Virus record (IMG/VR): IMGVR_UViG_3300010354_007053
Span: 1 to 35,035 of that record
Reading direction: 5' to 3' (one strand)
Source of the DNA: a virus
Length of the DNA: 35,035 bases
Shown in pieces: positions 10,193-30,797 of this stretch; the first letter of the stretch is position 1, and every line of letters begins with the position of its first letter. The notes beneath the pieces are model-generated. The model was given only the letters and a program-made list of their open reading frames with translations, ran no database searches and was not told the DNA's origin. Position numbers and translations under genes: made by a program.

Positions 10193-11349
10193 TGAGTATA
10201 TATATTTGGACTTCGGAATATGTAAGTGAAGGGCATCCTGATAAAATAGCTGACCAAATATCAGACGCAGTTCTTGATTGGTACTTACAGAGAGACCCAG
10301 ACGCAAAAGTTGCTTGTGAAGTAATGGTTAAAGATAATGATATTTATGTTTCTGGTGAAATAAAATCTACCGTTAATAAAGATAAACGAACTTTAGAATT
10401 ATCACTCACACAATTAATTAGATGGGTTATAAAGGATATTGGTTATACAAAAGAAGAATCACCGTTCTTTAATTCAGACTATTGCCGTATTCATTTTAAT
10501 ATATCAACTCAATCCCCTGAAATTAATCAAGCAGTTGATAAAGCTGGAGTTGTAACAGCAGGAGACCAAGGTATTATGTTTGGATACGCAACACGTGAAA
10601 CTCCAACTTATATGCCAATAGCAATTTACTTAGCTAAAAAAATTATAGAAGTAGCAACTGATATTAGAAAGAAAGGTGCTAAACTTGGTCATGTACAAAA
10701 ACTTCGCCCTGATATGAAGAGTCAAGTATCTGTTGTATATTCAGATGGTAAAGCAGTTGGTATTCATTCTGTTGTATTTTCAACTTGTCATTCCGAAATG
10801 GTTTCACTTGAACAACTTAGAAAATATTTTCATTCAGATATTTTGCCAGTTGTATTGGAAACTATTCCAAAGGAACTTGCAGAGTTATTTACAGATAAAA
10901 CAATTTATCATATAAATCCTGCTGGTGAATGGAACATAGGTGGTCCAGTTTCTGACTGTGGGCTAACAGGTAGAAAGATTGTAGTTGACCAATATGGTGC
11001 TGATTGTGAAATCGGTGGTGGTGCTTTCTCTGGTAAAGACCCAAGTAAAGTTGATAGAAGTGCTGCTTATATGGCGAGACACATTGCTATTAAAACACTA
11101 CATGAAAATCCAGAAGCAAATAAAATAAAAGTTCAACTGGCGTATGCAATCGGTGAAGAGTTTCCTGTTTCGTATCGTATATTCGACCCAACAACTGGTA
11201 AAGAATATGGATTGAATAAATTTACTCATACCGATTTAACTCCAAGTAAAATCATTGAACGATTAAAATTAAAAACTCCTATTTATTTACAGACTGCAAG
11301 GAATGGTCATTTTGGAAATAATGAGTTTGAATGGGAGAAAATTGGATGA
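10192..11349 (+). CDS. metK: S-adenosylmethionine synthetase (methionine adenosyltransferase)
   Basis: Makes SAM from methionine and ATP. The 385-aa length equals cellular MetK (E. coli 384). Signatures are complete: SEGHPDKIADQISDAVLD (12-29; H15 and D17 of the ATP/metal site), GDQGIMFGYA (124-133) and the glycine-rich P-loop-like GGGAFSGKD (275-283). It therefore looks catalytically intact. An in-frame ATG at 10180 lies inside the Nmad1 gene; the ATG at 10192 follows a GGGGGA site and is the conserved start. Carriage on a phage is uncommon, and here it probably supplies methyl donor to the several methyltransferases in the window. It overlaps the next gene by ATGA. Confidence 0.96.
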   Translation: MSIYIWTSEYVSEGHPDKIADQISDAVLDWYLQRDPDAKVACEVMVKDNDIYVSGEIKSTVNKDKRTLELSLTQLIRWVIKDIGYTKEESPFFNSDYCRIHFNISTQSPEINQAVDKAGVVTAGDQGIMFGYATRETPTYMPIAIYLAKKIIEVATDIRKKGAKLGHVQKLRPDMKSQVSVVYSDGKAVGIHSVVFSTCHSEMVSLEQLRKYFHSDILPVVLETIPKELAELFTDKTIYHINPAGEWNIGGPVSDCGLTGRKIVVDQYGADCEIGGGAFSGKDPSKVDRSAAYMARHIAIKTLHENPEANKIKVQLAYAIGEEFPVSYRIFDPTTGKEYGLNKFTHTDLTPSKIIERLKLKTPIYLQTARNGHFGNNEFEWEKIG

Positions 11350-11837
11350 AATTAAAAGACTTGATAATGGAAGCGTTCACATTGAATGGTAGAGTTATGT
11401 TATACCACTTTTCAAAAGAAGATTTAGGAAATGTAGCACTACTTGATCCAGCATTGTCAAGTCAACGTCCATCTTCTTGGTCACGTAATGATTATAAATT
11501 ATCAAAAGTACCAAGAGTATTTTACTATACAGACTTAGCAAAAGTTGAGCGTATGGTTAAAAGTAATAATTTATATGCAGCAGAGTACGATGGAACAAGA
11601 ATATTAAATATACCACAAGTATTAAAAGAGTACCAAACAAACCCAGATTCACTTGCTATAAAAAATCCAAATGCTTTCAAGGTAATGCAATCTTCCGTAA
11701 ACCAATACGGTGTAATAGATTACGATGCTATGTTAAGAACGGCAGGTCAATTCTTTAGTGGTGTATTCTACGATACTGGTAACTTACCAATCGTTAATTT
11801 ATTTGTACCACTAAGAGCAAAAAAACAAAATGTCTGA
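11346..11837 (+). CDS. Phage protein of unknown function with KLKDLIMEA leader
   Basis: 163-aa protein. It begins MKLKDLIMEAF, a short amphipathic leader with an IME|A site like those cut by the T4 prohead protease. The body contains LYHFSKEDL (about 19-27), a Ser/Arg-rich stretch, and PRVFYYTDL (about 53-61), a pattern I associate with an uncharacterised phage family and loosely with ADP-ribosyltransferase-like folds; the link is speculative. No catalytic triad can be assigned. The start at 11346 overlaps the MetK stop (ATGA) and has a GGGAG site at 8-nt spacing. It overlaps the nuclease gene by 8 nt. Confidence 0.75.
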   Translation: MKLKDLIMEAFTLNGRVMLYHFSKEDLGNVALLDPALSSQRPSSWSRNDYKLSKVPRVFYYTDLAKVERMVKSNNLYAAEYDGTRILNIPQVLKEYQTNPDSLAIKNPNAFKVMQSSVNQYGVIDYDAMLRTAGQFFSGVFYDTGNLPIVNLFVPLRAKKQNV

Positions 11838-12741
11838 TAAAAAAATATCCTTTTCACAATATCAAATGTGGAAGGGTTGCCCTCACAGGTGGAAACTTGT
11901 TTACAAAGATAAGGTTGGCATTTTTACTCCAAACATAGCAATGTTGTTTGGAACGGTGATGCATGAAGTTCTACAAGAATATGTAAAGACTATATATGAA
12001 AAATCAATAAACGAAGCAAACGCTTTAGAGTTAGATATAATGCTTCAGAATGGTTTGAAGGAACATTATAAAAAACTACTTACAGAAACTAATGGGGTAC
12101 ACTTCTCAAATCAAAATGAACTTGCTGAGTATTGTAATGATGGTATTGAAATTCTAAAATGGTTCAAGGCACATAGGGCAGACTTCTTCTTAAAGAAAGA
12201 TTATGAATTAGTTGGAATAGAATTACCGATTAATATAATTCCACTTGAAACTCATTCGAGTGTAAGACTTGTTGGATTTTTGGACTTGGTAATAAAGAAT
12301 ACAAAAACAGATGAGATTTATATTTACGATTTCAAAACAAGTACAGGTGGATGGGGTAAGTATCATAAGAATGATAAAGCAAAAGTATCGCAACTTGTTT
12401 TGTATAAAACATATTATGCAAAACAATATAATGTTAGTCCAGAAAGTATTCACGTTGAATATCTTATTCTAAGAAGAAAGATAAGGGAAGACGCTGAATA
12501 TGAAGCAATGAAAAGAAGAGTTCAAAGATTTGAACCATCGCACGGGAAAGTTTCTCAGAATCAAATTCAAAAAGAAATACACGAATTTATAACCACCAAC
12601 TTTACAGAAGACGGTGAATTTAAGTTAGATGTTGTTTATACACCAGAAGGTGGCAATGAATATTCTAATTGTAGATTTTGTGATTTCAATAAGTCTGAAG
12701 ATTTATGTCCGAAGGAAAAAAGAAATACCCTACCGTTCTAA
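11830..12741 (+). CDS. PD-(D/E)XK nuclease with four-cysteine Fe-S site (Cas4/AddB/RecB-like)
   Basis: 303-aa single-domain nuclease of the PDDEXK_1 type. It opens with ISFSQYQMWKGCPHRWKL (C17), has FGTVMHEVLQEY (H45), then the metal site GFLDLV (D152) and DFKTS (D167, K169). It ends with CRFC...LC, placing C281, C284 and C293 with C17, the four cysteines that hold a 4Fe-4S cluster in AddB and Cas4. It is expected to be a DNA exonuclease or flap nuclease for recombination or genome processing. It closes the metabolism block before the regulatory gap. Confidence 0.9.
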   Translation: MSDKKISFSQYQMWKGCPHRWKLVYKDKVGIFTPNIAMLFGTVMHEVLQEYVKTIYEKSINEANALELDIMLQNGLKEHYKKLLTETNGVHFSNQNELAEYCNDGIEILKWFKAHRADFFLKKDYELVGIELPINIIPLETHSSVRLVGFLDLVIKNTKTDEIYIYDFKTSTGGWGKYHKNDKAKVSQLVLYKTYYAKQYNVSPESIHVEYLILRRKIREDAEYEAMKRRVQRFEPSHGKVSQNQIQKEIHEFITTNFTEDGEFKLDVVYTPEGGNEYSNCRFCDFNKSEDLCPKEKRNTLPF

Positions 12742-12826: not shown

Positions 12827-12985
12827 GTGGATGAAAAATCAAAATATTCAAGTATTCAAATTAGAGCAAGAATAAAAGAAGAAATGTTAAATTACTGTAA
12901 TAGTAATGGATACAAAGTTAGTGGTCTTTTAGAAAAACTAATTCAGAATCACCTATCAGGAAGTTACGTTACGAATACTATATAA
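12827..12985 (+). CDS. Small ribbon-helix-helix DNA-binding protein
   Basis: 52-aa protein with a GTG start, six bases after GGAG (12817-12820). The layout is that of Arc/MetJ/CopG repressors: a short strand YSSIQIRAR (residues 7-15), helix A IKEEMLNYCNSNG (16-28) and helix B VSGLLEKLIQNHLSG (31-45), with a glycine turn between helices. It would act as a dimer inserting the strand pair in the major groove. The ATG at 12831 is in another frame and soon hits a stop. It is the first gene after the 10-bp repeats and 25 nt before the first glycosyltransferase, so it probably regulates itself and the island. Confidence 0.78.
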   Translation: MDEKSKYSSIQIRARIKEEMLNYCNSNGYKVSGLLEKLIQNHLSGSYVTNTI

Positions 12986-13010: not shown

Positions 13011-14447
13011 ATGGCAAAGAAAAAAATATTATTATTATCAGATGATTTACGGCTAACATCTGGAATTGCAACTGTGTCTCGTGATTTAGTTCTCGGTACA
13101 GTAAAAGACTTTGATTGGGTACAAGTCGGTGCAGCAATTAATCACCCAGATAAAGGTAAGATATTCGATTTATCACAAGATGCTAAAGAAAGAAGTGGTG
13201 ATGATACGGCAAGTGTAAAAATTTATTGTAATGATGGTTATGGGGATTCTTTTCTTATTCGTAGAATAATGCAAGCAGAAAAACCAGATGCTATATTACA
13301 TTTCACAGACCCAAGATTTTGGGGATGGTTATATAATATGGAACATGAAATACGTAAAAAAATTCCGCTGATGTATTTGAATATATGGGATGGTGCTGGT
13401 TTAATTGGAAATACAGCAACAGATCCTATGTGGAACAAAGAAGCATATGCAAGTTGTGATTTGTTAATGGCAATTTCAAAACAAACGTATGGATTAAATA
13501 CACGCATTCTTAAACGTTTTGGTGAAGAAATTCCCGAACATAGAATAACGTATGTACCTCACGGAATTGATACTGATATGTTTCACCCTATTAGAGAAGA
13601 GAATACAGTAGCTAATAACCAATGGGAAGAACTACAAGAAGAAAATAAAAAACTTCGTGGTAATAACCCAAACAAGTTTATTGTTATGTGGAACAATAGA
13701 AACATTCATCGAAAGCATCCAGGTGATGTAGTTCTTGCTTATAAACATTTTTGCCAACTTGTAGATAAGAATGGTGGTAATGCTGCAGAAGATTGCGCTC
13801 TGTTGATGCACACTCAACCAGTTGATCCAAATGGAACTGACTTAGTTTCATTGGTTGGTGAGTTATGTAATGAGTACACAGTTTTGTTTGACGATAAAGT
13901 AGTTCCATCTCCAAAATTAAATGTCTTATATAATGTAGCAGATGTTGTTCTTAACATGGCTTCAAATGAAGGATTTGGCTTAGGAACTGCAGAAGCAATC
14001 GCGGCAGGTACACCGATTGTGGTAAATGTTACAGGTGGTTTACAAGACCAATGTGGTTTTATAAATCCAAAGACTGGTACGTATTTTACAGCGGAAGATT
14101 ATTTGGAAGTTCATACACTTCATAGAAAAGATGAGTGGGGACATTTACAACACGGTGAATGGGTTAAACCTGTGTTCCCATCAAACATTTCATTACAAGG
14201 TTCAGTACCAACTCCTTATATTTTTGATGATAGAGCAGACTTCAGAGATATTGGTCAGGCATTATACGAGTGGTACATAACTTCAAAAGAAGATAGAATA
14301 TTTGCCGGATTAAAAGGAAGAGAGTTTATTAGGAATGCGGAAGTTGGTATGTCAAGAGATAATATGTGTGAGCGAGTTTCAAAAAGTATCAACGATACAT
14401 TTGAAAATTTCGTACCAAGAAAAAGTTTTGAATTACATTTAGTGTGA
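13011..14447 (+). CDS. GT4-type glycosyltransferase
   Basis: 478-aa GT-B fold glycosyltransferase. The N-terminal domain begins KKILLLSDDLRLTSGIATVSRDLV, typical of GT4 with a Gly-rich first turn. The C-terminal nucleotide-sugar domain has the EGFGLGTAE retaining motif (E320...E328) followed by AIAAGTPIVVNVTGG. A PHGIDTD string marks the domain junction. The donor and acceptor cannot be read from sequence. It is the first enzyme of the island and has no signal or membrane segment, so it acts in the cytoplasm. An AAAGG site precedes the ATG. Confidence 0.9.
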   Translation: MAKKKILLLSDDLRLTSGIATVSRDLVLGTVKDFDWVQVGAAINHPDKGKIFDLSQDAKERSGDDTASVKIYCNDGYGDSFLIRRIMQAEKPDAILHFTDPRFWGWLYNMEHEIRKKIPLMYLNIWDGAGLIGNTATDPMWNKEAYASCDLLMAISKQTYGLNTRILKRFGEEIPEHRITYVPHGIDTDMFHPIREENTVANNQWEELQEENKKLRGNNPNKFIVMWNNRNIHRKHPGDVVLAYKHFCQLVDKNGGNAAEDCALLMHTQPVDPNGTDLVSLVGELCNEYTVLFDDKVVPSPKLNVLYNVADVVLNMASNEGFGLGTAEAIAAGTPIVVNVTGGLQDQCGFINPKTGTYFTAEDYLEVHTLHRKDEWGHLQHGEWVKPVFPSNISLQGSVPTPYIFDDRADFRDIGQALYEWYITSKEDRIFAGLKGREFIRNAEVGMSRDNMCERVSKSINDTFENFVPRKSFELHLV

Positions 14448-14454
14448 GGGAATG

Positions 14455-15741
14455 ATGAGTTATAGACCAAAATTAGCTTTTTGTGGACCAGTTGCAACTA
14501 TGAGTGGTTATGGTTCTCATGCGAGAGATTTACTTTTATCACTTATAGAAATGGATAAGTTTGATATACAAGTAATATCAATAAATTGGGGTGAAACTCC
14601 CATGGACGCATTGGATTCAGATAATGCAGATATGAAAAAAATTAAAGACTTAATAATTCCAGGCTTACAATCACAGCCAGACATTTGGATGCAATGTACT
14701 ATTCCAAATGAATTCCAACCAGTTGGTAAATATAATATTGGAATTACAGCAGGTGTGGAAACTGACGCTTGTTCTCCTGAGTGGATTGATGGTTGTAATC
14801 GTATGAATTTGATTATTGTTCCATCCAAACACGCTAAGTGGGTATTTGATAATACTCAATACGATAAAATGGATAAGCAAACAAACCAAAAAGTTGGAAG
14901 TCTTAAAGTAACTGTACCTATAGAAGTTTTACATGAAGGTGTTAGAACTGATATATACAACAAAGAGAATCCGTTAGAAAAAAATATAACAGAAATATTA
15001 GATTCTATTCCAAACAATTTCGTATATTTGTTTGTTGGACATTGGCTTAAAGGAGACTTCGGTCAAGATAGAAAAGATATTTCTGGACTGATTTATACTT
15101 TCTGTGAAACATTTGGTGACACAGTAAATCCACCGGCACTTCTTTTGAAATGTACAAGCGGAACATTCTCTATCTCAGATAGAAGTAGAGTAATGGATAA
15201 AATTAATCTTATTAAGCGAATGAGTAAAAAGAAAAATCTACCAGAGATTTATTTACTACATGGTGAACTAACTGATAGTGAAATGAATTCTCTTTATAAT
15301 CATAAGAAAGTGAAGGCTATGGTTTCATTCACAAAGGGTGAGGGATATGGAAGACCGATTGCTGAATTTATGGCATCGGGTAAACCAATTATTGTTTCTG
15401 GTTGGAGTGGACATATGGATTTTATCAATGAGAAATTCCATATTCCATTGAAAGGATCTTTGTTAGAGGTTCATCCAACTGCTGTTTGGGATACAATTAT
15501 AAACAAAGGAACACGTTGGTTTACAGTAGATTACCAATATGCAGCAGAAACTATGGATAAAGTTCATAAGAATTATAATAAATACTTACAAAATTCTAAA
15601 ATAGGTATTCGTGAACTAAAAAGTATTTGGTCATATAATTCTATGTGTAAAAAGTTTGAAACTATGTTAGAAGAAAAACTTCCAAAGTTTGCAGAGAGAG
15701 TTGCTTTGAGTTTACCTAAACTTAAAAAAATCAGTAGTTAA
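14455..15741 (+). CDS. GT4-type glycosyltransferase
   Basis: 428-aa GT-B glycosyltransferase. The N-terminal domain starts YRPKLAFCGPVATMSGYGSH, and the donor domain has KGEGYGRPIAE (E296...E304) followed by ASGKPIIVSGWSGH. It is only distantly similar to the 13011 protein, so the two probably make different linkages. Two ATGs are adjacent (14452 and 14455); GAGG at 14446-14449 gives 5-nt spacing to 14455, which is chosen. It is separated from the preceding stop by 7 nt, indicating one transcript. Confidence 0.9.
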   Translation: MSYRPKLAFCGPVATMSGYGSHARDLLLSLIEMDKFDIQVISINWGETPMDALDSDNADMKKIKDLIIPGLQSQPDIWMQCTIPNEFQPVGKYNIGITAGVETDACSPEWIDGCNRMNLIIVPSKHAKWVFDNTQYDKMDKQTNQKVGSLKVTVPIEVLHEGVRTDIYNKENPLEKNITEILDSIPNNFVYLFVGHWLKGDFGQDRKDISGLIYTFCETFGDTVNPPALLLKCTSGTFSISDRSRVMDKINLIKRMSKKKNLPEIYLLHGELTDSEMNSLYNHKKVKAMVSFTKGEGYGRPIAEFMASGKPIIVSGWSGHMDFINEKFHIPLKGSLLEVHPTAVWDTIINKGTRWFTVDYQYAAETMDKVHKNYNKYLQNSKIGIRELKSIWSYNSMCKKFETMLEEKLPKFAERVALSLPKLKKISS

Positions 15742-15752
15742 GGAGAAACCAA

Positions 15753-16376
15753 ATGATTTCGTACACCATTACTGTTTGTAACGAACACAATCAGTTGAAT
15801 ACATTATTAAATTTTCTTGATTCAAAAATATCTGACCAAGATGAAATTGTTTTACAAATGGATAGTTTATCTGTAACCAACGAGGTTATAGAAGTTGTTA
15901 ATTCGCATAAAGCAAGAATAAAAAACTTAACCGTTATTGAATTTCCATTGAACAATGATTTCTCCAGCTTCAAGAATAATTTGAAAACGTATTGTACAAA
16001 AGAATGGATTTTTAATATTGATGCAGATGAAATACCCAACGAAGTTTTAATAGTAAACATACATGATATTTTAAAAGAAAATAAAGAAGTTGATATGTTT
16101 TTAGTTCCAAGATGGAATACTGTTCAAGGAATAACCGAAGAACATATAAACCAATGGAACTGGACTTATGATAAAGAAGGTAGAGTGAATTGGCCAGATT
16201 TACAAACAAGAATTTATAAAAATAAAGAATCTATTGTTTGGAAAAACAAAGTACATGAGCGATTAAGTGGGTTTACTACTTACGCTGTACTGCCTGAAGA
16301 AGTTGAGTATTGTTTGTTTCATCCTAAAACAATAGAACGGCAAGAAAAACAAAATGAATTTTATAGTCAAATATAG
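15753..16376 (+). CDS. GT2-type glycosyltransferase
   Basis: 207-aa GT-A fold enzyme. It starts MISYTITVCNEHNQLNTLL, the usual GT2 first strand and NE turn, and has the metal-binding NIDADE (D90-A-D92). It then has WNWTYDKEGRVNWPDLQTRIYKN and WKNKVHERLSG, the strings seen in WaaE/SunS-like GT2 proteins. It lacks the C-terminal extension of longer family members. A strong AAGGAG site lies 8 nt upstream. The acceptor is unknown. Confidence 0.88.
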   Translation: MISYTITVCNEHNQLNTLLNFLDSKISDQDEIVLQMDSLSVTNEVIEVVNSHKARIKNLTVIEFPLNNDFSSFKNNLKTYCTKEWIFNIDADEIPNEVLIVNIHDILKENKEVDMFLVPRWNTVQGITEEHINQWNWTYDKEGRVNWPDLQTRIYKNKESIVWKNKVHERLSGFTTYAVLPEEVEYCLFHPKTIERQEKQNEFYSQI

Positions 16377-16384
16377 GAATTGTT

Positions 16385-17569
16385 ATGGAAAAAATACCAT
16401 TATTCAAAGTGTTCATGTCTGAAACAGCACCAAAAGCTGTTACAGAAGTTCTTACTAGTGGGTTTATTGGTCAAGGGCCAAAGGTAGAAGAGTTGGAGAA
16501 GAATCTAACTTCTTACTTTGGAAATACATCAGCTGAAGTTTTAACGTTCAACTCAGCAACTTCGGCAGAGCATCTAATTTATCATCTACTAAAGAAACCA
16601 TCAAGACTCACAACAACATACGATGCTGGTCAAACTTGGTATGATTGGCAAGGATTAGAAGAGGGTGATGAAGTTCTAACAACACCACTAACTTGTACCG
16701 CAACAAACTGGCCAATATTGGCAAACGGTTTAAAAATAAAATGGGTTGATGTTGATCCAAATACAATGAATATTTCTTTGGAAGATTTGAAAGCAAAGTT
16801 ATCAGAAAAAACAAAGATTGTTGTTGTTGTTCATTGGGGTGGGTATCCTGTTGATTTGGTTGAACTTCAAAAAATCAGAAATGATTTTCACGCCAAGTAT
16901 GGTTTTTCATTTATGATAGTAGATGATTCGGCTCATGCTTTTGGTTCTGAATTAGATAATAAACTCATTGGCACATTCGATACTATTTCAACTTTTTCAA
17001 TGCAAGCGATTAAGCACATAACTTCTATTGACGGTGGGTTTTGGTTGTGTCCTTACAATGAATTAAATAAACGTGGAAAACTACAAAGATGGTATGGGAT
17101 TGATAGAGAAGGACCAAGAGCAGATTTTAGATGTGAAAGCGATATAGAAGAATGGGGATTTAAGTTTCACATGAATGATGTTTCTGCTGCGGTTGGTATA
17201 GAAAATTTAAAACACGCAAAGTATATAATTGGTAAACATAGAGATAACGCTAAGTATTACAACACAGAACTTCAAGGTGTAAGTGGTGTAACACTCTTAG
17301 AAAATTCTCCAAGAAAAAAATCTGCTTATTGGTTATATACAATGCGAGTAGAAAGAAGAGATGAGTTTATGCGTTACATGAATAGTTGTGGCATTGTTAC
17401 GAGTAGAGTACATGAAAGAAACGATAAACATACTTGCGTTAAAGAATTCGTTACTGAATTACCCAATGTGGAAATGGTAACTAAAGACATGATATGTATT
17501 CCTGTTGGTTGGTGGGTTACTGAAGAGCAACGTGAATATATTGTTAACTGTATCAAGAGGGGTTGGTGA
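16385..17569 (+). CDS. DegT/DnrJ/EryC1/StrS family sugar aminotransferase
   Basis: 394-aa PLP enzyme that transfers an amino group to a keto sugar nucleotide. Key parts are GFIGQGPKVEELE near the start, TPLTCTATNWPIL, VDDSAHAFGSEL (D180/D181 for the pyridine nitrogen), and the lysine in SMQAIKHITSIDGG (K210) that forms the Schiff base. The C-terminal domain has the usual WLYTMRV and IPVGWWVTEEQRE strings. It implies that an amino sugar is made or modified, but no 4,6-dehydratase is in this window, so the keto substrate would come from the host or from elsewhere in the genome. Confidence 0.94.
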   Translation: MEKIPLFKVFMSETAPKAVTEVLTSGFIGQGPKVEELEKNLTSYFGNTSAEVLTFNSATSAEHLIYHLLKKPSRLTTTYDAGQTWYDWQGLEEGDEVLTTPLTCTATNWPILANGLKIKWVDVDPNTMNISLEDLKAKLSEKTKIVVVVHWGGYPVDLVELQKIRNDFHAKYGFSFMIVDDSAHAFGSELDNKLIGTFDTISTFSMQAIKHITSIDGGFWLCPYNELNKRGKLQRWYGIDREGPRADFRCESDIEEWGFKFHMNDVSAAVGIENLKHAKYIIGKHRDNAKYYNTELQGVSGVTLLENSPRKKSAYWLYTMRVERRDEFMRYMNSCGIVTSRVHERNDKHTCVKEFVTELPNVEMVTKDMICIPVGWWVTEEQREYIVNCIKRGW

Positions 17570-18252
17570 TGAAACATTGGGAAGAGTTTTGGAGTATTAA
17601 ACAACAGAAACCTATTATAGAAGTTCCACCACAATCATTATATGGTGGAACTTATATAGAACCACTTGCTTCAATTGGTATGTCATGCTTCTTAGAACCT
17701 GTTCGTGATTTATTTAAAGAAGGGGTTTCCATATTAGACTACGGATGTGGTGCGGGGATATTAGCTAATTTTATTAGTGAACGGTTAAAAGATTATACGT
17801 ACTACGGATTAGAAATAAATTCAGAGCATGGTATTGAAAGACTTGATATTGCAAAAAAATACTTAACTGATAATAGAAATTACTTTGGATTAATAAACGA
17901 AGATTTAACATCGGTTCTAAAAAATAAAATAGACTGTGTTGTTTTGATTTCTATTTTTACACATTTAAAAATAGATGCAGTTAAAGATATAATTTTTAAT
18001 TTGAAACCTTTATTTGAAACAAACAAAGAAGCAAAAATTATATTCTCTTGTTTTATTGCAGAAGAAGATAATGTTATAGATTATAAACCAGAAATATCTG
18101 ATGAGTTTTACGGAGTTAGTTTTATAAAAGAAATTGATTTAGTTAACTTCTGTGAAGAAAATAATTTAAAATTAAGTAAGTGTTTTGATTTTGTTGCACA
18201 GAATGATCATGTTCATAATATATACATGATTGAAGTAGGTGAAAATTTATGA
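17569..18252 (+). CDS. Class I SAM-dependent methyltransferase
   Basis: 227-aa Rossmann methyltransferase. SAM motif I is ILDYGCGAG (55-63), followed by an acidic strand end YGLEIN and the INEDLTSVL segment. Later strands are VVLISIFTHLKIDAVKDI and AKIIFSCFIAE. It resembles small-molecule or glycan O/N-methyltransferases and not DNA enzymes, as there is no SPPY/DPPY. The start at 17569 overlaps the DegT stop (TGATG) and has AGAGGGG 7 nt upstream. It is probably a tailoring enzyme of the glycan. Confidence 0.87.
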   Translation: MKHWEEFWSIKQQKPIIEVPPQSLYGGTYIEPLASIGMSCFLEPVRDLFKEGVSILDYGCGAGILANFISERLKDYTYYGLEINSEHGIERLDIAKKYLTDNRNYFGLINEDLTSVLKNKIDCVVLISIFTHLKIDAVKDIIFNLKPLFETNKEAKIIFSCFIAEEDNVIDYKPEISDEFYGVSFIKEIDLVNFCEENNLKLSKCFDFVAQNDHVHNIYMIEVGENL

Positions 18253-18815
18253 TCGGTTGGAATGAAGAAATTAAAAAAGAATTGGGGTACTGTGGTAATA
18301 ATGTATTTATTGGACATAATGTTGTATTCACAAATCCAAAAGAAGTTTACCTAAGTGATAACGTTAGAATAGACCCATTTACTTTAATAACAACTAAATT
18401 AAAAGTTGGAAGTTATGTTCAGATTTGTTCTCACGCAGTTCTTGGTGGTGGAAGTTCTCATACAATTACATTGGGTGACTGGACTTTCATAGGATATGGT
18501 TCTAAATTGTTCTGTGCATCTGAGGATTATAGTGGTGACTTTGGACCTGTAAATGAGTTTTGGGGTAACAACAAAATATTTAGAGGCGATATTACGTTGA
18601 GTAACCACTCTGGTATTGCTTCTGATACAATGTTGTTTCCTGGTGTTCATCTACCAGAAGGCTGCACTATTGGTGCTAAAAGTTTTGTTTATCCAAAAGT
18701 TGAATTAATTGAATGGAGTGTTTGGCTTGGAAATCCTTTAAAGTTTCATAAAATGAGAAATAAAGAGAACGTACTTGCGTTTGCAAAAGATAAAGAATTT
18801 TTGAAGAAACATTAA
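18249..18815 (+). CDS. Left-handed beta-helix (hexapeptide) acyltransferase
   Basis: 188-aa protein of repeated hexapeptide turns: VFIGHNVVFTNPKEVYLSDN, VRIDPFTLIT, SYVQICSHAVLGGG, ITLGDWTFIGYGS, IASDTMLFPGVHLPEGCTIGAKSFV. The SHAVLGGGSSH histidines are candidate catalytic residues. With the DegT aminotransferase nearby, N-acetylation of an amino sugar is the likely job; serine O-acetyltransferase-like or colanic-acid-type O-acetylation is an alternative. The start overlaps the methyltransferase stop (ATGA). Confidence 0.9.
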   Translation: MIGWNEEIKKELGYCGNNVFIGHNVVFTNPKEVYLSDNVRIDPFTLITTKLKVGSYVQICSHAVLGGGSSHTITLGDWTFIGYGSKLFCASEDYSGDFGPVNEFWGNNKIFRGDITLSNHSGIASDTMLFPGVHLPEGCTIGAKSFVYPKVELIEWSVWLGNPLKFHKMRNKENVLAFAKDKEFLKKH

Positions 18816-18823
18816 GAAAATAT

Positions 18824-19570
18824 ATGAAGTGTTGTAAAGTAATATGCTTTTGGTTTGGATGGAGAAGACAATTTAGTAACAACGTTAGTAACATTACTGA
18901 ATTAGTTCCTACAATAGTAAACACGGAATTAAATATTGAGAACGGAATAGATACCGATGTTTTATTTGTAGTAAACAAAACAAACACAGAATTAGATAAT
19001 TCACTCGATAAATATGATGGTATGCAAACTAAGAATGGTTGTATTAAAGTTATTAAACGAGATAACATTGGTTTATCATTCGGTGCTTATTTAACAGCTT
19101 TCTCTCAATTTAAAAATGAATATGACTATTGGTTCTTCTCTGAAGATGATGTAATAATTTATCACGAAAATTATATGAAATCATTCGTAGATTTTTGGGA
19201 AAAAAATAAAGAGCAATTAGGATTTATCGCTTTAGCACCTATAAGTAATTATGGAAAATTACATTGTGGTGGAGGATGTGGAATGGTTTCTACAGAATGG
19301 ATGAAAAAAACATATAACGATTCTGATATAATCCGTATATTGCAAAATTATTCTACGTATAAAGAACAGTATGATATTGCAGATTCTACATTAGGTAGTG
19401 AAAATGCAGAAGTTCTTTTCTCTAGTTCTTTTGTTCACGATGGTAGAACGATAATGAATCACTCAGAGTATTCACCACTTGCAGCAAATTACACAAAGCA
19501 TAATAGTCAACGTAGATTTGAAACAAGAGAAAATCTAAATAAAAAATTTATATACACAGTTGGGGCATAA
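18824..19570 (+). CDS. Probable glycosyltransferase (GT-A/RgpF-like)
   Basis: 248-aa protein. It has a DTDVLFVVNK strand, the NIGLSFGAYLTAFSQF string similar to the N-x-G-x-x-xGA motif of RgpF/GT2-type enzymes, and an acidic SEDDVIIY motif (about 106-113) in place of DxD. The C-terminal half has GGGCGMVSTEWM, as in enzymes that test an acceptor at that loop. No signal peptide or membrane helix is seen. Assignment is by motif and by its position among other glycosyltransferases. Confidence 0.72.
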   Translation: MKCCKVICFWFGWRRQFSNNVSNITELVPTIVNTELNIENGIDTDVLFVVNKTNTELDNSLDKYDGMQTKNGCIKVIKRDNIGLSFGAYLTAFSQFKNEYDYWFFSEDDVIIYHENYMKSFVDFWEKNKEQLGFIALAPISNYGKLHCGGGCGMVSTEWMKKTYNDSDIIRILQNYSTYKEQYDIADSTLGSENAEVLFSSSFVHDGRTIMNHSEYSPLAANYTKHNSQRRFETRENLNKKFIYTVGA

Positions 19571-19571
19571 T

Positions 19572-20444
19572 ATGAAAAACTATTTCACAGAAAAAACAGC
19601 GATGGATATTCCTTGGATTGAATCTCCATTTTTTGAAAAAATACTAAACAACTCAGAGTATACAGAAGAAGAAAGAGAAACTCTAATAAAGTATAATAGA
19701 GATGGATATGTTGTGATTGATTTAGAATTGGATGACAATTTTATTAGTAATTTAATTAGTGGCGTTCAAGATGAATTAGATAAATTACCAACACAAGATT
19801 CGAGATACCATTACTCAGATTCACCTAGAGTTTTTGAAGCATGGAGAACTAATCCGTATGTTTTAGATTTAGCTCGTCATCCTAAGATATTGAAAACACT
19901 TGAGTTTCTTTATAATAAAAAACCAGTTCCATTTCAAACTATAAATTTTTTGAAGGGTAGTAATCAACCATTACACCAAGACTCTATTCATTTTTATACT
20001 CAACCAGAAAGATGGATGGTTGGAACTTGGACTGCTTTAGAAGATATGAGTGAACTAAATGGTCCATTGAATATAGTACCAGGTAGTCACAAACATCCAC
20101 ATTATAATTTTCAAAACTTAAATTTACCAGTTGTGGAGTTTGGAAATCAATTTGAAAATTACGCTGAGTATGAAAACTTTCTTATTCATTTAGTAGAAAC
20201 AATGAGTGAGAACAAAAAACAATGGATAGGTAAAAAAGGTCAAACATTAATTTGGGCTGCTAATTTATTACATGGTGGTGCTGAAATTATTGATAAAAAT
20301 TTAACACGTCATTCACAGGCCACTCATTTTTACTTTGAAGGGTGTAACCATTACTATGCACCTTTATTCTCAGATGTTACTAACGGAATATATTCAGATA
20401 AAGACTTAACAAACAAAGATATATTAAATCATATAATTGGGTGA
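19572..20444 (+). CDS. Phytanoyl-CoA dioxygenase (PhyH) family Fe(II)/2-oxoglutarate oxygenase
   Basis: 290-aa double-stranded beta-helix oxygenase. The iron triad is clear: H135-x-D137 in LHQDSIHFY and H234 in LLHGGAE, with R246 (TRHSQ) for 2-oxoglutarate. The intervening GPLNIVPGSHKHP is a family hallmark. It probably hydroxylates a small molecule or a lipid or sugar part of the glycan. The first in-frame start is a TTG at 19560 inside the previous gene; the ATG at 19572 is used. It is not of the TET/JBP DNA-oxidising type, so base hydroxylation is not suggested. Confidence 0.9.
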   Translation: MKNYFTEKTAMDIPWIESPFFEKILNNSEYTEEERETLIKYNRDGYVVIDLELDDNFISNLISGVQDELDKLPTQDSRYHYSDSPRVFEAWRTNPYVLDLARHPKILKTLEFLYNKKPVPFQTINFLKGSNQPLHQDSIHFYTQPERWMVGTWTALEDMSELNGPLNIVPGSHKHPHYNFQNLNLPVVEFGNQFENYAEYENFLIHLVETMSENKKQWIGKKGQTLIWAANLLHGGAEIIDKNLTRHSQATHFYFEGCNHYYAPLFSDVTNGIYSDKDLTNKDILNHIIG

Positions 20445-20447
20445 TGT

Positions 20448-21089
20448 ATGGCAAAGATAGTTTTTTTTGGTGGTACAGGTGGACTTGGTTCGAAAGTTAT
20501 AGAACATTTAGGAACACATACTATAAAGCCAGTTGGTTCGAGATTGGTTAATCTTGAAGAAGAATTAGAAATACAGAAATATTTCAATAGTAATAAAGAT
20601 TTAGATGTGCTTGTTATTTTTTCTAATTATAATTTTAATTCTTTCTTGCACAAGTACAAAGATAATCAAGAAGAATTAAATAAACAGATAGCAATAAACA
20701 TTGGAGGTGTTACTACTTGTATAGCAAACGCATTACCAAATATGAGAGAAAGAAACTTTGGTAGAATAATACTTGCTTCAAGTATAACAGTTGATAAAAA
20801 TGTTATTGGTACATCCTTGTATGCAGCAGCAAAAGCATACTATGAAAACATTGTAAAAACAATTTGCATTGAAAATGCACAAAAAGGAATAACTGCAAAC
20901 TGTATTCAGTTGGGTTACATGGACGGTGGTTTAACTTATACATTAGACGAGGAATTTCTAAAGAATACAATTAAATCAATTCCTGCTAAAAGACTCGGTA
21001 CACCTGAAGAAATAGCAATGACTATTGACTTTCTAATAAATAATCCTTATGTTAATGGAACTACAATTAAATTAACTGGCGGTTTATAA
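20448..21089 (+). CDS. Short-chain dehydrogenase/reductase (SDR)
   Basis: 213-aa NAD(P)-dependent oxidoreductase. The dinucleotide motif is FFGGTGGLGS (5-14), the catalytic serine lies in ASSIT (S111/S112), and the active site is Y125-AAA-K129 in SLYAAAKAYYE. ITANCIQLGYMDGG follows as the usual post-active-site loop. Length is slightly short for a classical SDR (about 250). It could reduce a keto sugar or act on the product of the PhyH enzyme encoded just upstream. It ends in TAATG, overlapping the next gene. Confidence 0.9.
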   Translation: MAKIVFFGGTGGLGSKVIEHLGTHTIKPVGSRLVNLEEELEIQKYFNSNKDLDVLVIFSNYNFNSFLHKYKDNQEELNKQIAINIGGVTTCIANALPNMRERNFGRIILASSITVDKNVIGTSLYAAAKAYYENIVKTICIENAQKGITANCIQLGYMDGGLTYTLDEEFLKNTIKSIPAKRLGTPEEIAMTIDFLINNPYVNGTTIKLTGGL

Positions 21090-22066
21090 TGCTGTATTAT
21101 AGAATAATAAATGATAAAGTTGTAGTGATGGATGAACTTCATTACTTATTGTTTTCCAAAGAAGATAAAGAAAAACATTCTGTTCCAGGATTACCAGACA
21201 ATTATGATGGATGGTTTCCTTTTTTAAGAATGTGCCATACTATTGGAGATTATGCAATAACAAGTGGAATCTTTGAAGCATTGAAAACAAAACATCCTAA
21301 GATACAAATAGCATTACCAACTGATGAATATTTATTGAAGTTTTTTGGTGAAGCGGGTTTGGAATATTATTCATCTGGAACCAATAATGGTTTGCAGAAT
21401 TTTCATATTGTTAATGCTAATAATCCACATATAGATTATTATTACAACTTCGGAGAATTTGAAAATATATTCACAGATCACGAAAGATGTTATACAAGTT
21501 TAGTTAAAAGACCAAACGGTGATATTCGTTCCTGCGATGAACCTTTAGCTGAACAAATACTTCGTAGGTTTGGGTTCACAGAAGAAGAGTTAAAAACTAT
21601 TGATAGTAGACCTAAGTTATACTTTTCTAATGAAGAAAAAGAAAAAGGTGACGCATTTATTAAATCACACATGGGAAATTCTGAGTATGGTTGTTTATTA
21701 TTTTCAGCAAGAATAGAAGAGTACCGTAACGAGTGGGAGTATGATACTGAACTATTTAATGCGTCTGAACAATATTCCAATTATCCTGTGTTTTATTATT
21801 CCAACGCTTTTGATTTAGAAACAACAAAGTGGAAGAAACGTTTTAATAACGCCATTGATTTTTCTAAAACAGATTTAACAATACGTGAACAACTTTATGT
21901 TAAGAGTAACGCAAAATTTAATATCGGTTATCAAGCAGGAGTTACCGATGCAATATCAGGAACAAATACAGAATGTCATGTTCTAACTCCATACTATAAC
22001 ATTGCGGAATGTTGTATTAGAGGAGTTACTTATTATTTTTCAGACGGTTCAATTAAAAGGTTTTAA
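21089..22066 (+). CDS. GT9-like (heptosyltransferase-type) protein, tandem copy 1
   Basis: 325-aa protein. FLRMCHTIGDYAITSGIFEALKTKHP (about 45-70) has the shape of the N-terminal GT9 signature (LRxxxxGDxxxxxPxL...P), and QIALPTDEYL is the next strand. The C-terminal half ends in REQLYVKSNAKFNIGYQAGVTD, resembling the acceptor-side GT9 pattern of a gate residue plus Gly. It is a clear paralogue of the next gene. A heptosyltransferase-type role in the glycan is an inference; the active-site residues are not certain. Confidence 0.68.
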   Translation: MLYYRIINDKVVVMDELHYLLFSKEDKEKHSVPGLPDNYDGWFPFLRMCHTIGDYAITSGIFEALKTKHPKIQIALPTDEYLLKFFGEAGLEYYSSGTNNGLQNFHIVNANNPHIDYYYNFGEFENIFTDHERCYTSLVKRPNGDIRSCDEPLAEQILRRFGFTEEELKTIDSRPKLYFSNEEKEKGDAFIKSHMGNSEYGCLLFSARIEEYRNEWEYDTELFNASEQYSNYPVFYYSNAFDLETTKWKKRFNNAIDFSKTDLTIREQLYVKSNAKFNIGYQAGVTDAISGTNTECHVLTPYYNIAECCIRGVTYYFSDGSIKRF

Positions 22067-22068
22067 TC

Positions 22069-22980
22069 ATGGCTATTTTTTATAGAATATACGATAACAC
22101 AATTAGACACGCATTTGAAACTGACAAACTTGGTTTTGATGTAAATGATCCCTCTTATATACCAGATGAGTATTTGGCAAACAAAAAGTTTATAGTGTTA
22201 AGAACTTGTAACTCATTAGGTGATTGGGGAATTATATCTGCAATGCCTCGATTACTAAAGCAGAAATATCCAGATTGTAAAGTGTATGTTCCATCTGTTG
22301 ATTTATTAACAAATATGTTTGCAGGTAGAAATACATGGAATCAATGGAACAATCCGTTTGAAAATGTTAAACAAATATTTCACAACAATCCGTGGGTTGA
22401 CGGATTTATAGATAATATAGATGATGAAGTTTTCCATGACCATTATAGAATATACGATTTAGATGATCCAGAAATACCACTTGTAAAACAAATGTTAAAG
22501 TTCTGGCAATTCGCAGATTCAGAAATGAAAGATTATTTACCTGAGATTTATTTCACACATGAAGAAATACAATTAGGAAATGAAATAATAAATTCTTATA
22601 TTGGTGATAATAAATTCGGTTCATTGTTATTGGCTAATACCACAAAAGATTTTTATGAAGACAATGTAAATGAATTACTTATTGGTGCTTTGGAATTATA
22701 CAAAGATTTACCGTTCTTCTATTATGGAAGTAAAGACATAAGTGAAACAAAGTTTAACTTTGTTAATGTTAAAGGAAATTTTAAGGATATGAAAATTCCA
22801 TTACGAGTTCAGTTATACATAAAGTCAAGAGCAATTGTTAACATTGGTTATCACAGCGGTATTAATGATATATTATGTAGGTATACAAATGTAGTATGTA
22901 CACCGATGCACCCAACAAGTAAAGAAACTTTAAGAGAAAATTATTTACACACTATAAACTATTTACGCTATGACTTTTAA
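22069..22980 (+). CDS. GT9-like (heptosyltransferase-type) protein, tandem copy 2
   Basis: 303-aa paralogue of the 21089 protein, sharing FYRI at the start, VLRTCNSLGDWGIISAMPRL (about 43-62) for the GT9-like donor loop, a Y-x-VPSVDLLTNMF strand, and RVQLYIKSRAIVNIGYHSGIND near the end. The GDWGI motif is a closer match to GT9 than copy 1. Tandem duplication with later divergence is the simplest reading. It overlaps the next gene by 11 nt. Confidence 0.7.
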   Translation: MAIFYRIYDNTIRHAFETDKLGFDVNDPSYIPDEYLANKKFIVLRTCNSLGDWGIISAMPRLLKQKYPDCKVYVPSVDLLTNMFAGRNTWNQWNNPFENVKQIFHNNPWVDGFIDNIDDEVFHDHYRIYDLDDPEIPLVKQMLKFWQFADSEMKDYLPEIYFTHEEIQLGNEIINSYIGDNKFGSLLLANTTKDFYEDNVNELLIGALELYKDLPFFYYGSKDISETKFNFVNVKGNFKDMKIPLRVQLYIKSRAIVNIGYHSGINDILCRYTNVVCTPMHPTSKETLRENYLHTINYLRYDF

Positions 22981-23527
22981 TGAACCAAATATTGAATCGA
23001 GTTATTCTATAAACACATTAGGAAGCACTATTTATCAAACAGTTTTGGATTATAAACCAGAACGAGTTATTGAGTTTGGTGCACTCTATGGTTATTCTAC
23101 TATTTGTATTGCTTCTGCTCTGAGGGAACTTGGTAGAGGGAAACTTATATGTTATGATATTTGGGACAAGTATGAGTACAAACACGCATCCATAAATGAA
23201 ACTCACTCTAATGTTATTAAGTATGGTTTAACCGATTATGTTGAATTGCAAGAAATGAATTTTTATGAATGGGTATTGAATCCTACTGACTTCGATTTAA
23301 TGCACTTAGATATTTCCAATGATGGTGATATAATTGAATTAGTTTATGATTCACTTGTAAAGAACAAAAAGCATGGTGTGGTTTTATTTGAAGGTGGTAC
23401 TGTTGAACGAGACAATGTTGAATGGATGATTAAGTACAATAAAAAACCATTCAGTTCAATACAGCAAAAAGTTCAGTATGAAATTGTTAACCCTATGTTT
23501 CCTTCACTTTCTAAGATAGTTTTATGA
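22970..23527 (+). CDS. Class I SAM-dependent methyltransferase (Methyltransf_24/CmcI-like)
   Basis: 185-aa Rossmann methyltransferase. SAM motif I reads ERVIEFGALYGYST (31-44), followed by the hydrophobic helix ICIASALRELGRG, the acidic strand LICYDIWDKYEYKHA, and a later FDLMHLDISND strand (D near 110) that often holds a metal in this family. The G-x-x-x-G-Y-S loop is typical of Methyltransf_24 and CmcI proteins, which methylate sugars or small hydroxyl compounds. It is shorter than many members, but the fold is complete. It overlaps the preceding gene by 11 nt and the following one by ATGA. Confidence 0.82.
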   Translation: MTFNEPNIESSYSINTLGSTIYQTVLDYKPERVIEFGALYGYSTICIASALRELGRGKLICYDIWDKYEYKHASINETHSNVIKYGLTDYVELQEMNFYEWVLNPTDFDLMHLDISNDGDIIELVYDSLVKNKKHGVVLFEGGTVERDNVEWMIKYNKKPFSSIQQKVQYEIVNPMFPSLSKIVL

Positions 23528-24450
23528 AGATAGCATTCTTTACAGAAATGGGATTCAATGGTAAGATACCGAGAACACATGAAAACATGAGAACTGAATT
23601 TGCTTGGATGTGTGCATTGAATGCAACTCACTACACTATTGGGCAAGTTCCAAATGAAGAATATGACTTGGGTGTAGTTATTATTCCTAAGAATAATCCA
23701 AACTTTAATATAGATGAATTAAAATCAACTTGTAAGAAAGTAGCAATAATGCAAGAAGGACCAAATTGGTTCTGGCAAGATTATGATTTAGCAAAACAGA
23801 TTTGGTATTTTAATACATTAACTTCAGCAGATATTATATTCACTCACAATAAAGCTGACCAAATGTATTATCAAGGTTTAACTTCACATCCTGATGTTCG
23901 TGTGTTACCTGCTCTTATGATTGAAGAAGTGATTAGTGATATTCCAAGTGTAGAAAGAAATGGTGTTATAATAGGTGGAAACTTTGTATCTTGGTATGGT
24001 GGATTTGATTCATACATAATTGCTTCTGATTTAAGTGAAGATGTGTACGCACCATCGATGGGTAGACGGCAACCTGGAGAGGAACACTTAATCAAACATT
24101 TACCATATATGAATTGGAAAGAATGGATTTATGCATTGAATAAATTTAAGTGGGGTATTCATTTAATGAGAACTCATGCAGCAGGAACATTTGCATTAAA
24201 CTGTTCTTATCTTGGTATTCCATGCATTGGCTATAATGGTTTAGATACACAAGAGTTGTTGCACCCAAACCTTTCAGTTGATGTTGGAGATTTACAAACA
24301 GCAAGGAAGTTGGCATTGAAACTAAAAGACGAAGAATTTTATAAAGAGCAGAGTGATATTACTAAAAAAATGTATAAGGAGTTTTATAGTGAAGATAAGT
24401 TTTATTCAGCCTTCAAGAAACAATTTGAAATATCTCAAATGGTCTTATGA
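23524..24450 (+). CDS. Probable GT-B glycosyltransferase
   Basis: 308-aa protein. The N-terminal part has MKIAFFTEMGFNGKIPR and a KKVAIMQEGPNWFWQDY strand; the C-terminal part has GVIIGGNFVSWYGG and WGIHLMRTHAAGTFALNCSYLGIPCIGYNG, the last resembling the donor-domain E/G-rich loop of GT4-type enzymes without a clear E-x7-E. A TARKLALKLKDEEFY string near the end is a common GT1/GT4 tail. Function is by fold pattern and by context. It shares its final 62 nt with the start of the next gene in another frame. Confidence 0.7.
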   Translation: MKIAFFTEMGFNGKIPRTHENMRTEFAWMCALNATHYTIGQVPNEEYDLGVVIIPKNNPNFNIDELKSTCKKVAIMQEGPNWFWQDYDLAKQIWYFNTLTSADIIFTHNKADQMYYQGLTSHPDVRVLPALMIEEVISDIPSVERNGVIIGGNFVSWYGGFDSYIIASDLSEDVYAPSMGRRQPGEEHLIKHLPYMNWKEWIYALNKFKWGIHLMRTHAAGTFALNCSYLGIPCIGYNGLDTQELLHPNLSVDVGDLQTARKLALKLKDEEFYKEQSDITKKMYKEFYSEDKFYSAFKKQFEISQMVL

Positions 24451-25567
24451 AGCAATAAGAAAAAATCAAGGAAGTCACACGGTAGAAATATGTGTTGCTG
24501 ATGACTTTAGCAATGATGGTACATGGGAATGGTGTCAGGATAAAATGAAGGTTGATTCTAACTTTAAGGCTATACGCAATGATGGTCCAAAAAGAATTGG
24601 ACATACAATTCTATATGATAGATTAATTAATGAAGTTTCTTCACATGATATATGTATGATTTATCATGCCGATATGTACCTGTGTCCAGGTGCGTTGGAT
24701 TCTATTGAAAAGTATATAGCACCTAAAACTATTGTTTCATTGACAAGAATCGAACCACCTTTACATCCGAATGGTCCAGAAAAAGTTTTATTAGATTGTG
24801 GAATTGAACCAGAAGAATTTAATGAAGAAAAATTATTATCTGAATTAAATTTATTACAAGTTGGTGAAAAAACAACGGAAGGTATATTCGCACCATGGGC
24901 ATTTATGAAAGCTGATTTTCAAGAAATTGGTGGACACGATCCATTATATGCACCACAATCAAAAGAAGATTCGGATATTTTCAATAGGTTTCAATTGAAT
25001 GGTGTTAAGTTTATTCAAACTTGGCAAGGATTTGTTTATCACATGACTTGTAGAGGAAGTAGATTTAATCCAACTTTAACTGAGCCGGGAAAGAATAGTT
25101 CGGAATGGGAAGAACAGAACCTACGTTCAACTAGAAACTTTATTCGTAAGTGGGGTAGTTTTGTTTCACATGACGAATTATTGAAACCAGTAATAACTCA
25201 CAAGTATGATATTGGTATAGTGTTGAAAAATTGTACATTACCATTATTAGAACTTAGTGAAATATTTTGCTCAAATGTCTATGTGGATTTAGATTCAGAA
25301 TCTATTCAACGTTACATCGATAGGGAACAACCAAATACTAAGTTTAATTTATCTGATAGAATTCGTTCTATTGATGCAGAAAAAGTAAATGATATTATTG
25401 TTGAGTTTGATGGAAACAATTGGACACAAGCAGTAAGAGACATGGTGCTACACTTACCGAGTATTCTAACTGTTAATGAGATAGAAGTTGGTATATATGA
25501 ATTAGACTTTTGTACTATATATGTTAAAAATGTAATATACTATGAGAATAATTTGATAAAATTATAA
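24389..25567 (+). CDS. GT2-type glycosyltransferase
   Basis: 392-aa protein with a GT2 N-terminal domain: MKISFIQPSRNNLKYLKWS (GTG-initiated), VADDFSNDGTWEW (37-48), and MIYHADMYLCPG (an H-A-D in place of DxD). A later WAFMKADFQEIGGHD is typical of the GT2 acceptor loop. The C-terminal 130 residues are unassigned. An in-frame ATG at 24353 exists, but AAGGAG (24376-24381) lies 7 nt before the GTG at 24389, which also begins the conserved first strand. This start gives a 62-nt overlap with the previous gene. It is the last gene of the island; a run of TAA/ATA triplets follows its stop. Confidence 0.84.
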   Translation: MKISFIQPSRNNLKYLKWSYEAIRKNQGSHTVEICVADDFSNDGTWEWCQDKMKVDSNFKAIRNDGPKRIGHTILYDRLINEVSSHDICMIYHADMYLCPGALDSIEKYIAPKTIVSLTRIEPPLHPNGPEKVLLDCGIEPEEFNEEKLLSELNLLQVGEKTTEGIFAPWAFMKADFQEIGGHDPLYAPQSKEDSDIFNRFQLNGVKFIQTWQGFVYHMTCRGSRFNPTLTEPGKNSSEWEEQNLRSTRNFIRKWGSFVSHDELLKPVITHKYDIGIVLKNCTLPLLELSEIFCSNVYVDLDSESIQRYIDREQPNTKFNLSDRIRSIDAEKVNDIIVEFDGNNWTQAVRDMVLHLPSILTVNEIEVGIYELDFCTIYVKNVIYYENNLIKL

Positions 25568-25585
25568 TAATAATAATTGAATATA

Positions 25586-25593
25586 TATTTATA
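25586..25593 (+). promoter_or_regulatory. TATTTATA promoter-like box downstream of the glycan island
   Basis: TATTTATA ends 34 nt before the ATG at 25628. The longer string ATATTTATATGTAT is identical to that before the 31202 gene. It lies just after the end of the island, so it probably starts a new transcript. Confidence 0.45.
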
Positions 25594-25627
25594 TGTATAT
25601 ACTGTAAAAAATTCTTTGGAGACATTT

Positions 25628-25984
25628 ATGCATGAGATCGCAAGTAAATTAGTTCAAATACAAACACAACTCAGATTTTATCATTGGCAAACTAAATCAT
25701 ACGCACGTCACCAAGCATATGGTGGTACGTATGGTGCAATGGATGGTTTGATTGATTCATTTGTAGAAGTTCTCATGGGTAAATACGGACGTGTTCCTGC
25801 TATTCCGTTTGAAATTGTAAACAGCAATGCAAAAGATATAAATTCTTTTATAGAAGAAACAATCCAATTTTTAATTGGTTTGTCTTCCATGTTGAATGTA
25901 AAGACAGATACAGACTTATTGAACATAAGGGATGAAATGTTAGCCGAGTTTAATAAACTCAAATATTTAATTACATTAAAATAA
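25628..25984 (+). CDS. Small helical phage protein (DUF5856-like, Dps-like helix pair)
   Basis: 118-aa helical protein. HEIASKLVQIQTQLRFYHWQTKSYARHQAYG (2-32) and the following MDGLIDSFVEVLMGKYGR look like the first two helices of a ferritin/Dps-like bundle, with H/W/H/E residues placed as in Dps ferroxidase helices. I associate this pattern with short phage proteins (DUF5856); the exact role is unknown. An upstream in-frame ATG at 25577 is possible, but GGAG six bases before the ATG at 25628 decides the start. Confidence 0.72.
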   Translation: MHEIASKLVQIQTQLRFYHWQTKSYARHQAYGGTYGAMDGLIDSFVEVLMGKYGRVPAIPFEIVNSNAKDINSFIEETIQFLIGLSSMLNVKTDTDLLNIRDEMLAEFNKLKYLITLK

Positions 25985-29130: not shown

Positions 29131-29160
29131 GTTTTATTAATTAAGAAAGGAGTTATGACA

Positions 29161-29589: not shown

Positions 29590-29603
29590 TCAATGAGGGA
29601 AAG

Positions 29604-30779: not shown

Positions 30780-30797
30780 TTTTAAGGAGATAATAAA

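Follow-up and report, generated by a model that had tools for sequence, protein, structure and literature searches.

What does a phage build with a long, continuous run of sugar genes, and onto what is the product placed? The locus that raises this question lies at positions 13011–25567 of IMG/VR record IMGVR_UViG_3300010354_007053. The whole stretch analyzed, hereafter the window, comprises 35,035 bases of a T4-like phage genome, and its main genes all share one strand. An initial annotation had called the locus a thirteen-gene glycan-synthesis island and offered three uses for its product: a virion coat, an altered host surface, or sugars on modified DNA bases. The glycan-synthesis assignment is well supported by eight glycosyltransferases (GTs) and a set of sugar-modifying enzymes. 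The whole island would form a complete assembly line for a glycan in the cytoplasm, fixed at its start and exchangeable at its end. On an evenly balanced judgement, the acceptor that its glycan decorates would be a virion protein.

The borders, single strand and tight overlapping packing given in that annotation were borne out, with intergenic gaps of −62 to +11 nt when the last gene is started at GTG 24389 after AAGGAG. The gene count required correction, as 14 co-directional open reading frames (ORFs), all on the plus strand, lie between a PD-(D/E)XK nuclease gene and a DUF5856 gene. Ratios of nonsynonymous to synonymous substitution (dN/dS) were 0.05–0.15 for each island gene present in the relative G001 and 0.04–0.10 for the upstream replication genes. 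The island genes are therefore under purifying selection and are not chance ORFs. Scans for the T4 late promoter (TATAAATA) and for sigma-70 promoters were uninformative, the DNA being AT-rich.

A fixed trio and an exchangeable cassette

Phage records gave no Megablast match to the island, and protein searches were therefore used. Scans with DegT, GT4b, GT4a and DUF5856 gathered about 170 viral loci, a number that counts some overlapping stretches of a single contig separately. The contigs derive from metagenomes, and most are fragments, as are several of the large records. This comparison of the island among related phages, proposed in the initial annotation, resolved two units: a fixed head and an exchangeable cassette.

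The head consists of GT4a (13011–14447; GT4 Pfam match, PHROG 2170), GT4b (14452–15741; PF00534 E 2e-7, PHROG 2170 E 5e-21) and GT2a (15753–16376; PF00535 E 5e-6). This trio comes after the nuclease in every testable relative, with 47/47 contigs for GT4a, 37/37 for GT4b and 31/31 for GT2a. Contigs were picked by the nuclease alone, and the denominators are those long enough to test. T4-like relatives keep a constant order of nuclease (11830–12741; PF12705 E 9e-20), often an extra 461-aa gene, GT4a, GT4b and GT2a. After a variable run, the DUF5856 gene (25577–25984; PF19174 E 7e-18), a small ORF and a NUDIX gene are constant again, with minor exceptions. The nuclease, itself outside the pathway, and the DUF5856 gene thus frame the island on its left and right.

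A host operon in a contaminated contig was considered and rejected. GT4a was found in cellular genome sets on 11 contigs only (L187–L197, labelled archaea, Pelagibacter, Flavobacteriales and others), of which two are short, trio-bearing fragments. These contigs are probably mis-binned phage DNA, because the other nine have the gene frame of T4-like phages.

In one locus (L078:4452–6909), an IMP dehydrogenase gene split by an intein-like insert with a homing-nuclease-like ORF lies between the nuclease and GT4a. Microcystis phage Mel-JY01 has an annotated GuaB at the matching place.

The cassette (16366–25583) was delimited by DNA alignment. The window and relative G011 (IMGVR_3300019776_000461) are 87.6% identical up to 16365, which leaves 11 bases of GT2a, and then from 25584, a point seven bases inside the DUF5856 ORF. 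Between these breakpoints, 9.2 kb of the window stands against an unrelated 8.2 kb in G011. Relative G002 has the identical left breakpoint. Across 39 distinct backbones, 17 cassette beginnings were distinguished, and no cassette gene is common to the two members in three of ten pairs whose GT4b proteins are at least 90% identical. The cassette is swapped as a block between close relatives, and the trio stays constant. G001 carries the window's cassette without methyltransferase 1 (alignment gap 17577–18249). Some cassette genes also move among distantly related backbones: identity between the window and Flavobacterium phage immuto is 71% for DegT, but just 45–48% for the trio. An assembly chimera was rejected, as the frame is also found in the isolates immuto and Mel-JY01 and the left breakpoint recurs in independent contigs.

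According to the initial annotation, the glycan-island idea would fail if the enzymes proved unrelated in related phages. The outcome was split, with the first three enzymes constant and the rest exchanged for other sugar-pathway genes, which refines the idea and does not refute it.

Just upstream of the trio, a 52-aa ORF (12827–12985) may encode a ribbon-helix-helix-type regulator (weak PF10723 match, E 0.004, below cut-off). In six compared loci its two alleles track the cassette type, A or B, despite conservation of the three transferases that separate it from the cassette. Sequence upstream of the island is conserved.

Enzymes, sugars and phage identity

The eight GTs are two GT4, two GT2, two GT9-fold, one GT-A and one GT-B enzyme, in agreement with the GT4, GT2 and GT9-like types first proposed; Pfam, PHROG and the fold comparison of the 22069 product confirmed them. 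The 30% identical paralogues at 21089–22066 and 22069–22980 had no Pfam match. Sequence profile searches of the PDB with this pair and with the product of 18824–19570 gave chance-level matches only, and fold comparison was therefore needed, with TM-scores near 0.5. The AlphaFold model of the 22069 product (pLDDT 82) had GT9/heptosyltransferases as its best PDB matches (3tov, 1psw, 2h1h; Foldseek E 5e-6). It is predicted to have a GT9/heptosyltransferase fold, an assignment made at the level of fold only at a TM near 0.5, and the 21089 product is assigned as GT9-type through its paralogue. The 18824 protein carries an invariant EDD motif, and the best PDB matches of its model (pLDDT 89) are nearly all GT-A enzymes. 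The GT-B enzyme (23524–24450) has a BshA-like C-terminal half (BshA/GT4 profile match, E 2e-4). GT2b (24389–25567; PF00535 E 1e-7), whose start was set by the ribosome-binding site, closes the cassette.

Family matches likewise confirmed the other proposed enzymes. These are a DegT sugar aminotransferase (16385–17569; PF01041 E 8e-67), S-adenosylmethionine (SAM)-dependent methyltransferase 1 (17563–18252; PF13489 E 1e-6) and a NeuD/WcaF-like hexapeptide (left-handed beta-helix) acyltransferase (18249–18815; PF00132 E 1e-14). A PhyH-type 2-oxoglutarate oxygenase (19560–20444; PF05721 E 1e-18), an SDR oxidoreductase (20448–21089; PF13561 E 3e-24) and O-methyltransferase-like methyltransferase 2 (22970–23527; PF13578 E 2e-10, weak RMNT_CmcI match) complete the set.

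From these families, the window's cassette appears equipped for an N-acylated amino-deoxy sugar plus methylation. The reported lack of a nucleotide-sugar dehydratase held: no island gene matches an NDP-sugar 4,6-dehydratase, and none was found in G001, a 110-kb relative with the same cassette type. The 4-keto sugar precursor is therefore probably taken from the host. Supply of precursors by the host, one of the two sources initially supposed, fits this cassette type, but many sister cassettes encode dehydratases or NeuB of their own. In searches with representatives of 149 clusters of cassette proteins, the families matched were methyltransferases, epimerases, GDP-mannose dehydratase, RmlD, DegT, FkbM, NeuB, formyltransferase, hexapeptide and GNAT acyltransferases, and cytidylyltransferases. 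NeuB, which catalyses the committed step toward nonulosonic acids (pseudaminic and legionaminic acid, for example), was present in 8/35 contigs, and twice in three of these.

The window covers part of a T4-like phage genome. It holds the gp43/gp44/gp62/clamp replication set, with genes 5' of the island for dUTPase, a T4 gp43-type family-B DNA polymerase, the sliding clamp, the large and small clamp loader subunits, SAM synthetase and the PD-(D/E)XK nuclease. The polymerase is closest to that of Mel-JY01 (62%; Microcystis host as recorded). The gp23 capsid gene lies outside this 35-kb fragment and is present in the close relatives G001, G002 and G011. A host within the Bacteroidota is probable, because a borderline type IX secretion system (T9SS) sorting domain occurs at 29155 and Flavobacterium phage immuto is among the island's relatives.

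Several neighbouring genes are recorded here in their own right. The region 29155–31088 encodes a signal-peptide-like protein with the T9SS type A sorting domain (TIGR04183, 22.9 bits against a cut-off of 23), followed by a signal-peptide-like fibre-type protein with a weak Phage_depo_C match and then a tail-collar protein. Routing of a phage protein through host type IX secretion would be unusual. A SAM lyase family protein (739–1368; PF23780 E 3e-10) shares the window with the SAM synthetase (10180–11349); one would break down SAM and the other produce it. Two paralogues with N6/N4 DNA-methylase-like domains (1992–3152 and 6438–8087; 30% identical) lie on either side of the polymerase and clamp genes.

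Site of assembly and acceptor

A simple hydropathy scan found no membrane-length hydrophobic segment in any island protein. Of the 592 cassette proteins of relatives, counted with redundancy, 587 lack any hydrophobic 19-mer scoring above 1.8, and in no case are two hydrophobic segments present. Initiating sugar-phosphate transferases (Bac_transf, PF02397) and Wzx-type flippases (PF01943) were each found in 0/16 large records, with positive controls. Because multi-span membrane proteins, flippases and initiators of these types are all lacking, the chain is assembled in the cytoplasm, either directly on the acceptor that finally carries it or on a lipid exported by the host. A Wzx/Wzy-type polysaccharide locus was rejected by the same results. 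O-antigen conversion of the GtrABC type was also rejected, the island having no membrane segments and only a marginal PHROG 841 match (E 0.008) in GT2b. Eight phage-encoded transferases free of membrane segments are what virion glycosylation would call for.

Cytoplasmic assembly bears equally on host lipooligosaccharide (LOS), which the enzymes might extend or cap at the cytoplasmic face, blocking superinfection or the sticking of progeny to debris. LOS keeps some probability as acceptor because cytoplasmic enzymes would suffice there too; those of the lipopolysaccharide (LPS)-core type require no flippase of their own, and the GT9 pair is predicted to fold like heptosyltransferases. A role at the host surface was also proposed for pelagimyophage GTs by the authors of PMC7029224. 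We nevertheless consider it somewhat unlikely here. Neither an initiator nor a flippase, polymerase or multi-span membrane protein accompanies the enzymes, and the start module is constant in phages whose recorded hosts are quite different and should not have the same LOS core. The time available in a lytic cycle may also be too short for much remodelling of the cell surface.

The genes that travel with the trio bear on a third acceptor, the phage DNA. Sugars on a hydroxymethylated base would guard against restriction and CRISPR nucleases, as in T4 and other phages (PMC13216743). Relatives G001, G002, G011 and G006 encode a thymidylate-synthase-family protein closest to CMP 5-hydroxymethylase (E 0.003), with the gene just upstream of the window-homologous stretch. 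However, no gene of this family was found in the trio-bearing Mel-JY01 (a complete record) or in the fragments G003, G004 and G005, so that a hydroxymethylated-base enzyme was not detected everywhere the transferases occur. The annotated thymidylate synthase of Mel-JY01 has a ThyX-type sequence, and immuto has 7-deazaguanine genes instead. An outer chain of serotype-like character, made by a pathway of eight transferases, would moreover seem excessive for blocking nucleases. Because the trio is found in phages with no detected hydroxymethylase, we lowered the DNA reading and hold it quite unlikely.

Two base-modification loci in relatives were noted separately. In G001, L179:7709–11062, just upstream of the window-homologous stretch, carries in a row genes for thioredoxin, the CMP/dCMP-hydroxymethylase-like thymidylate-synthase relative, an asparagine-synthase-type amidotransferase and a pyridoxal phosphate (PLP) threonine-dehydratase-like enzyme, a candidate base-hypermodification cluster. 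In immuto, L099:18607–37015 has annotated FolE, QueD, QueE, QueC, QueF and DpdA beside its own glycan core.

A virion protein is favoured over DNA because the trio is kept across differing polymerases and base-modification genes. The occurrence of GT4a on just 11 contigs of cellular genome sets also counts toward this reading. Immuto, Mel-JY01 and G002 have in common the trio together with capsid, portal, terminase, sheath and tube proteins (50–56% identity). Immuto combines these with polymerase A and 7-deazaguanine DNA genes, Mel-JY01 with polymerase B and ThyX, and G002 with polymerase B and the hydroxymethylase-like protein. Several points weigh against a virion acceptor. The argument is not clean, since helicase and primase, among other replication genes, are also common to the three phages, and the link between trio and virion is a correlation inside one broad group. 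The closest relatives carry the hydroxymethylase-like gene, and a LOS acceptor would make the same demand for cytoplasmic enzymes only. Of the three uses first suggested, the virion coat is nonetheless the best supported, if indirectly; the host surface is weaker for want of export machinery, and DNA sugars are the weakest, the core being kept where no hydroxymethylase was detected.

A further candidate is a soluble or small-molecule glycoside, or another acceptor made by the phage that is neither virion, LOS nor DNA. All the enzymes are soluble, and combinations of PhyH, SDR and methyltransferase enzymes are known from small-molecule pathways, but eight GTs with serotype-like exchange suggest a chain displayed to a selective agent outside. 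We regard such a product as very unlikely.

With a virion protein as the most likely phage-owned acceptor, GT4a, GT4b and GT2a would place a conserved short core on it, and the cassette enzymes would then synthesize and attach outer sugars. DegT, perhaps with the SDR, probably turns a host 4-keto sugar into an amino-deoxy sugar, which the hexapeptide enzyme would N-acylate. Five more GTs may add further residues, and the two methyltransferases and the 2-oxoglutarate oxygenase would finish the chain. Recombination in the constant flanks would exchange the whole cassette, so that near-identical sister phages would show different glycan types. The benefit may be altered adsorption, or escape from agents that bind glycans or proteins.

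Relation to known systems

To our knowledge, phage glycosylation is usually treated as single enzymes or odd auxiliary genes, and the open-access literature yielded no description of a T4-like phage locus in which a universal three-enzyme start is combined with exchange of the whole cassette at fixed borders. In many aquatic phages, among them an isolate cultivated on Flavobacterium, this single locus combines diverse outer-glycan genes with constant starter genes. Should the virion be the acceptor, phages have self-made surface serotypes, with consequences for adsorption, immune recognition and phage defence. More broadly, and with confidence a little short of even, we propose that lytic T4-like phages show long, elaborate virion glycans and switch type by whole-cassette exchange behind a universal three-enzyme primer, giving true phage serotypes, driven by agents of the host or the environment with affinity for glycans or virion proteins. 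Because relatives are in culture, the acceptor question can be put to a direct test, and the cassettes offer enzymes for rare sugars.

Bacterial O-antigen and capsule loci have constant flanks around an exchangeable block of sugar-synthesis and GT genes, which gives rise to serotypes. The phage island has the same layout, but it lacks initiator, flippase and polymerase, and its first three transferases are constant. T4 DNA glucosyltransferases, with related enzymes of DNA hypermodification, likewise place GTs in a T4-like phage, and some relatives of the window have a hydroxymethylase-like gene. The GT families differ, however, and the trio is kept where no hydroxymethylase was found.

Pelagimyophages and cyanomyophages, also T4-like, have a variable island rich in LPS-type GTs, the hypervariable host recognition cluster. 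This cluster is situated among structural genes, between VrlC and gp14, together with tail fibres, and is reported to diverge gradually (PMC7029224). In contrast, the window's island does not lie in a structural region with tail-fibre genes; it follows the replication genes, between nuclease and DUF5856, holds pathway genes only and is replaced as a block. Jumbo moraphages, likened here by description only, resemble it in having several conserved core GTs in large aquatic phages, with no cassette exchange reported there (PMC12619734).

Among tailed phages with their own GTs, mycobacteriophages have virion glycans with proposed capsid or tail display (Freeman et al. 2023, as summarized in PMC12619734). 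Compared with these, the present pathway is far larger, is divided into a fixed trio and a cassette, and occurs in phages of unrelated hosts. The constant core recalls the capsid N-glycans of chloroviruses, where enzymes encoded by the virus build a constant glycan core (PMC7826918). Those are eukaryotic viruses with different enzymes, and their constancy is chemical and measured, whereas here it is predicted from gene content.

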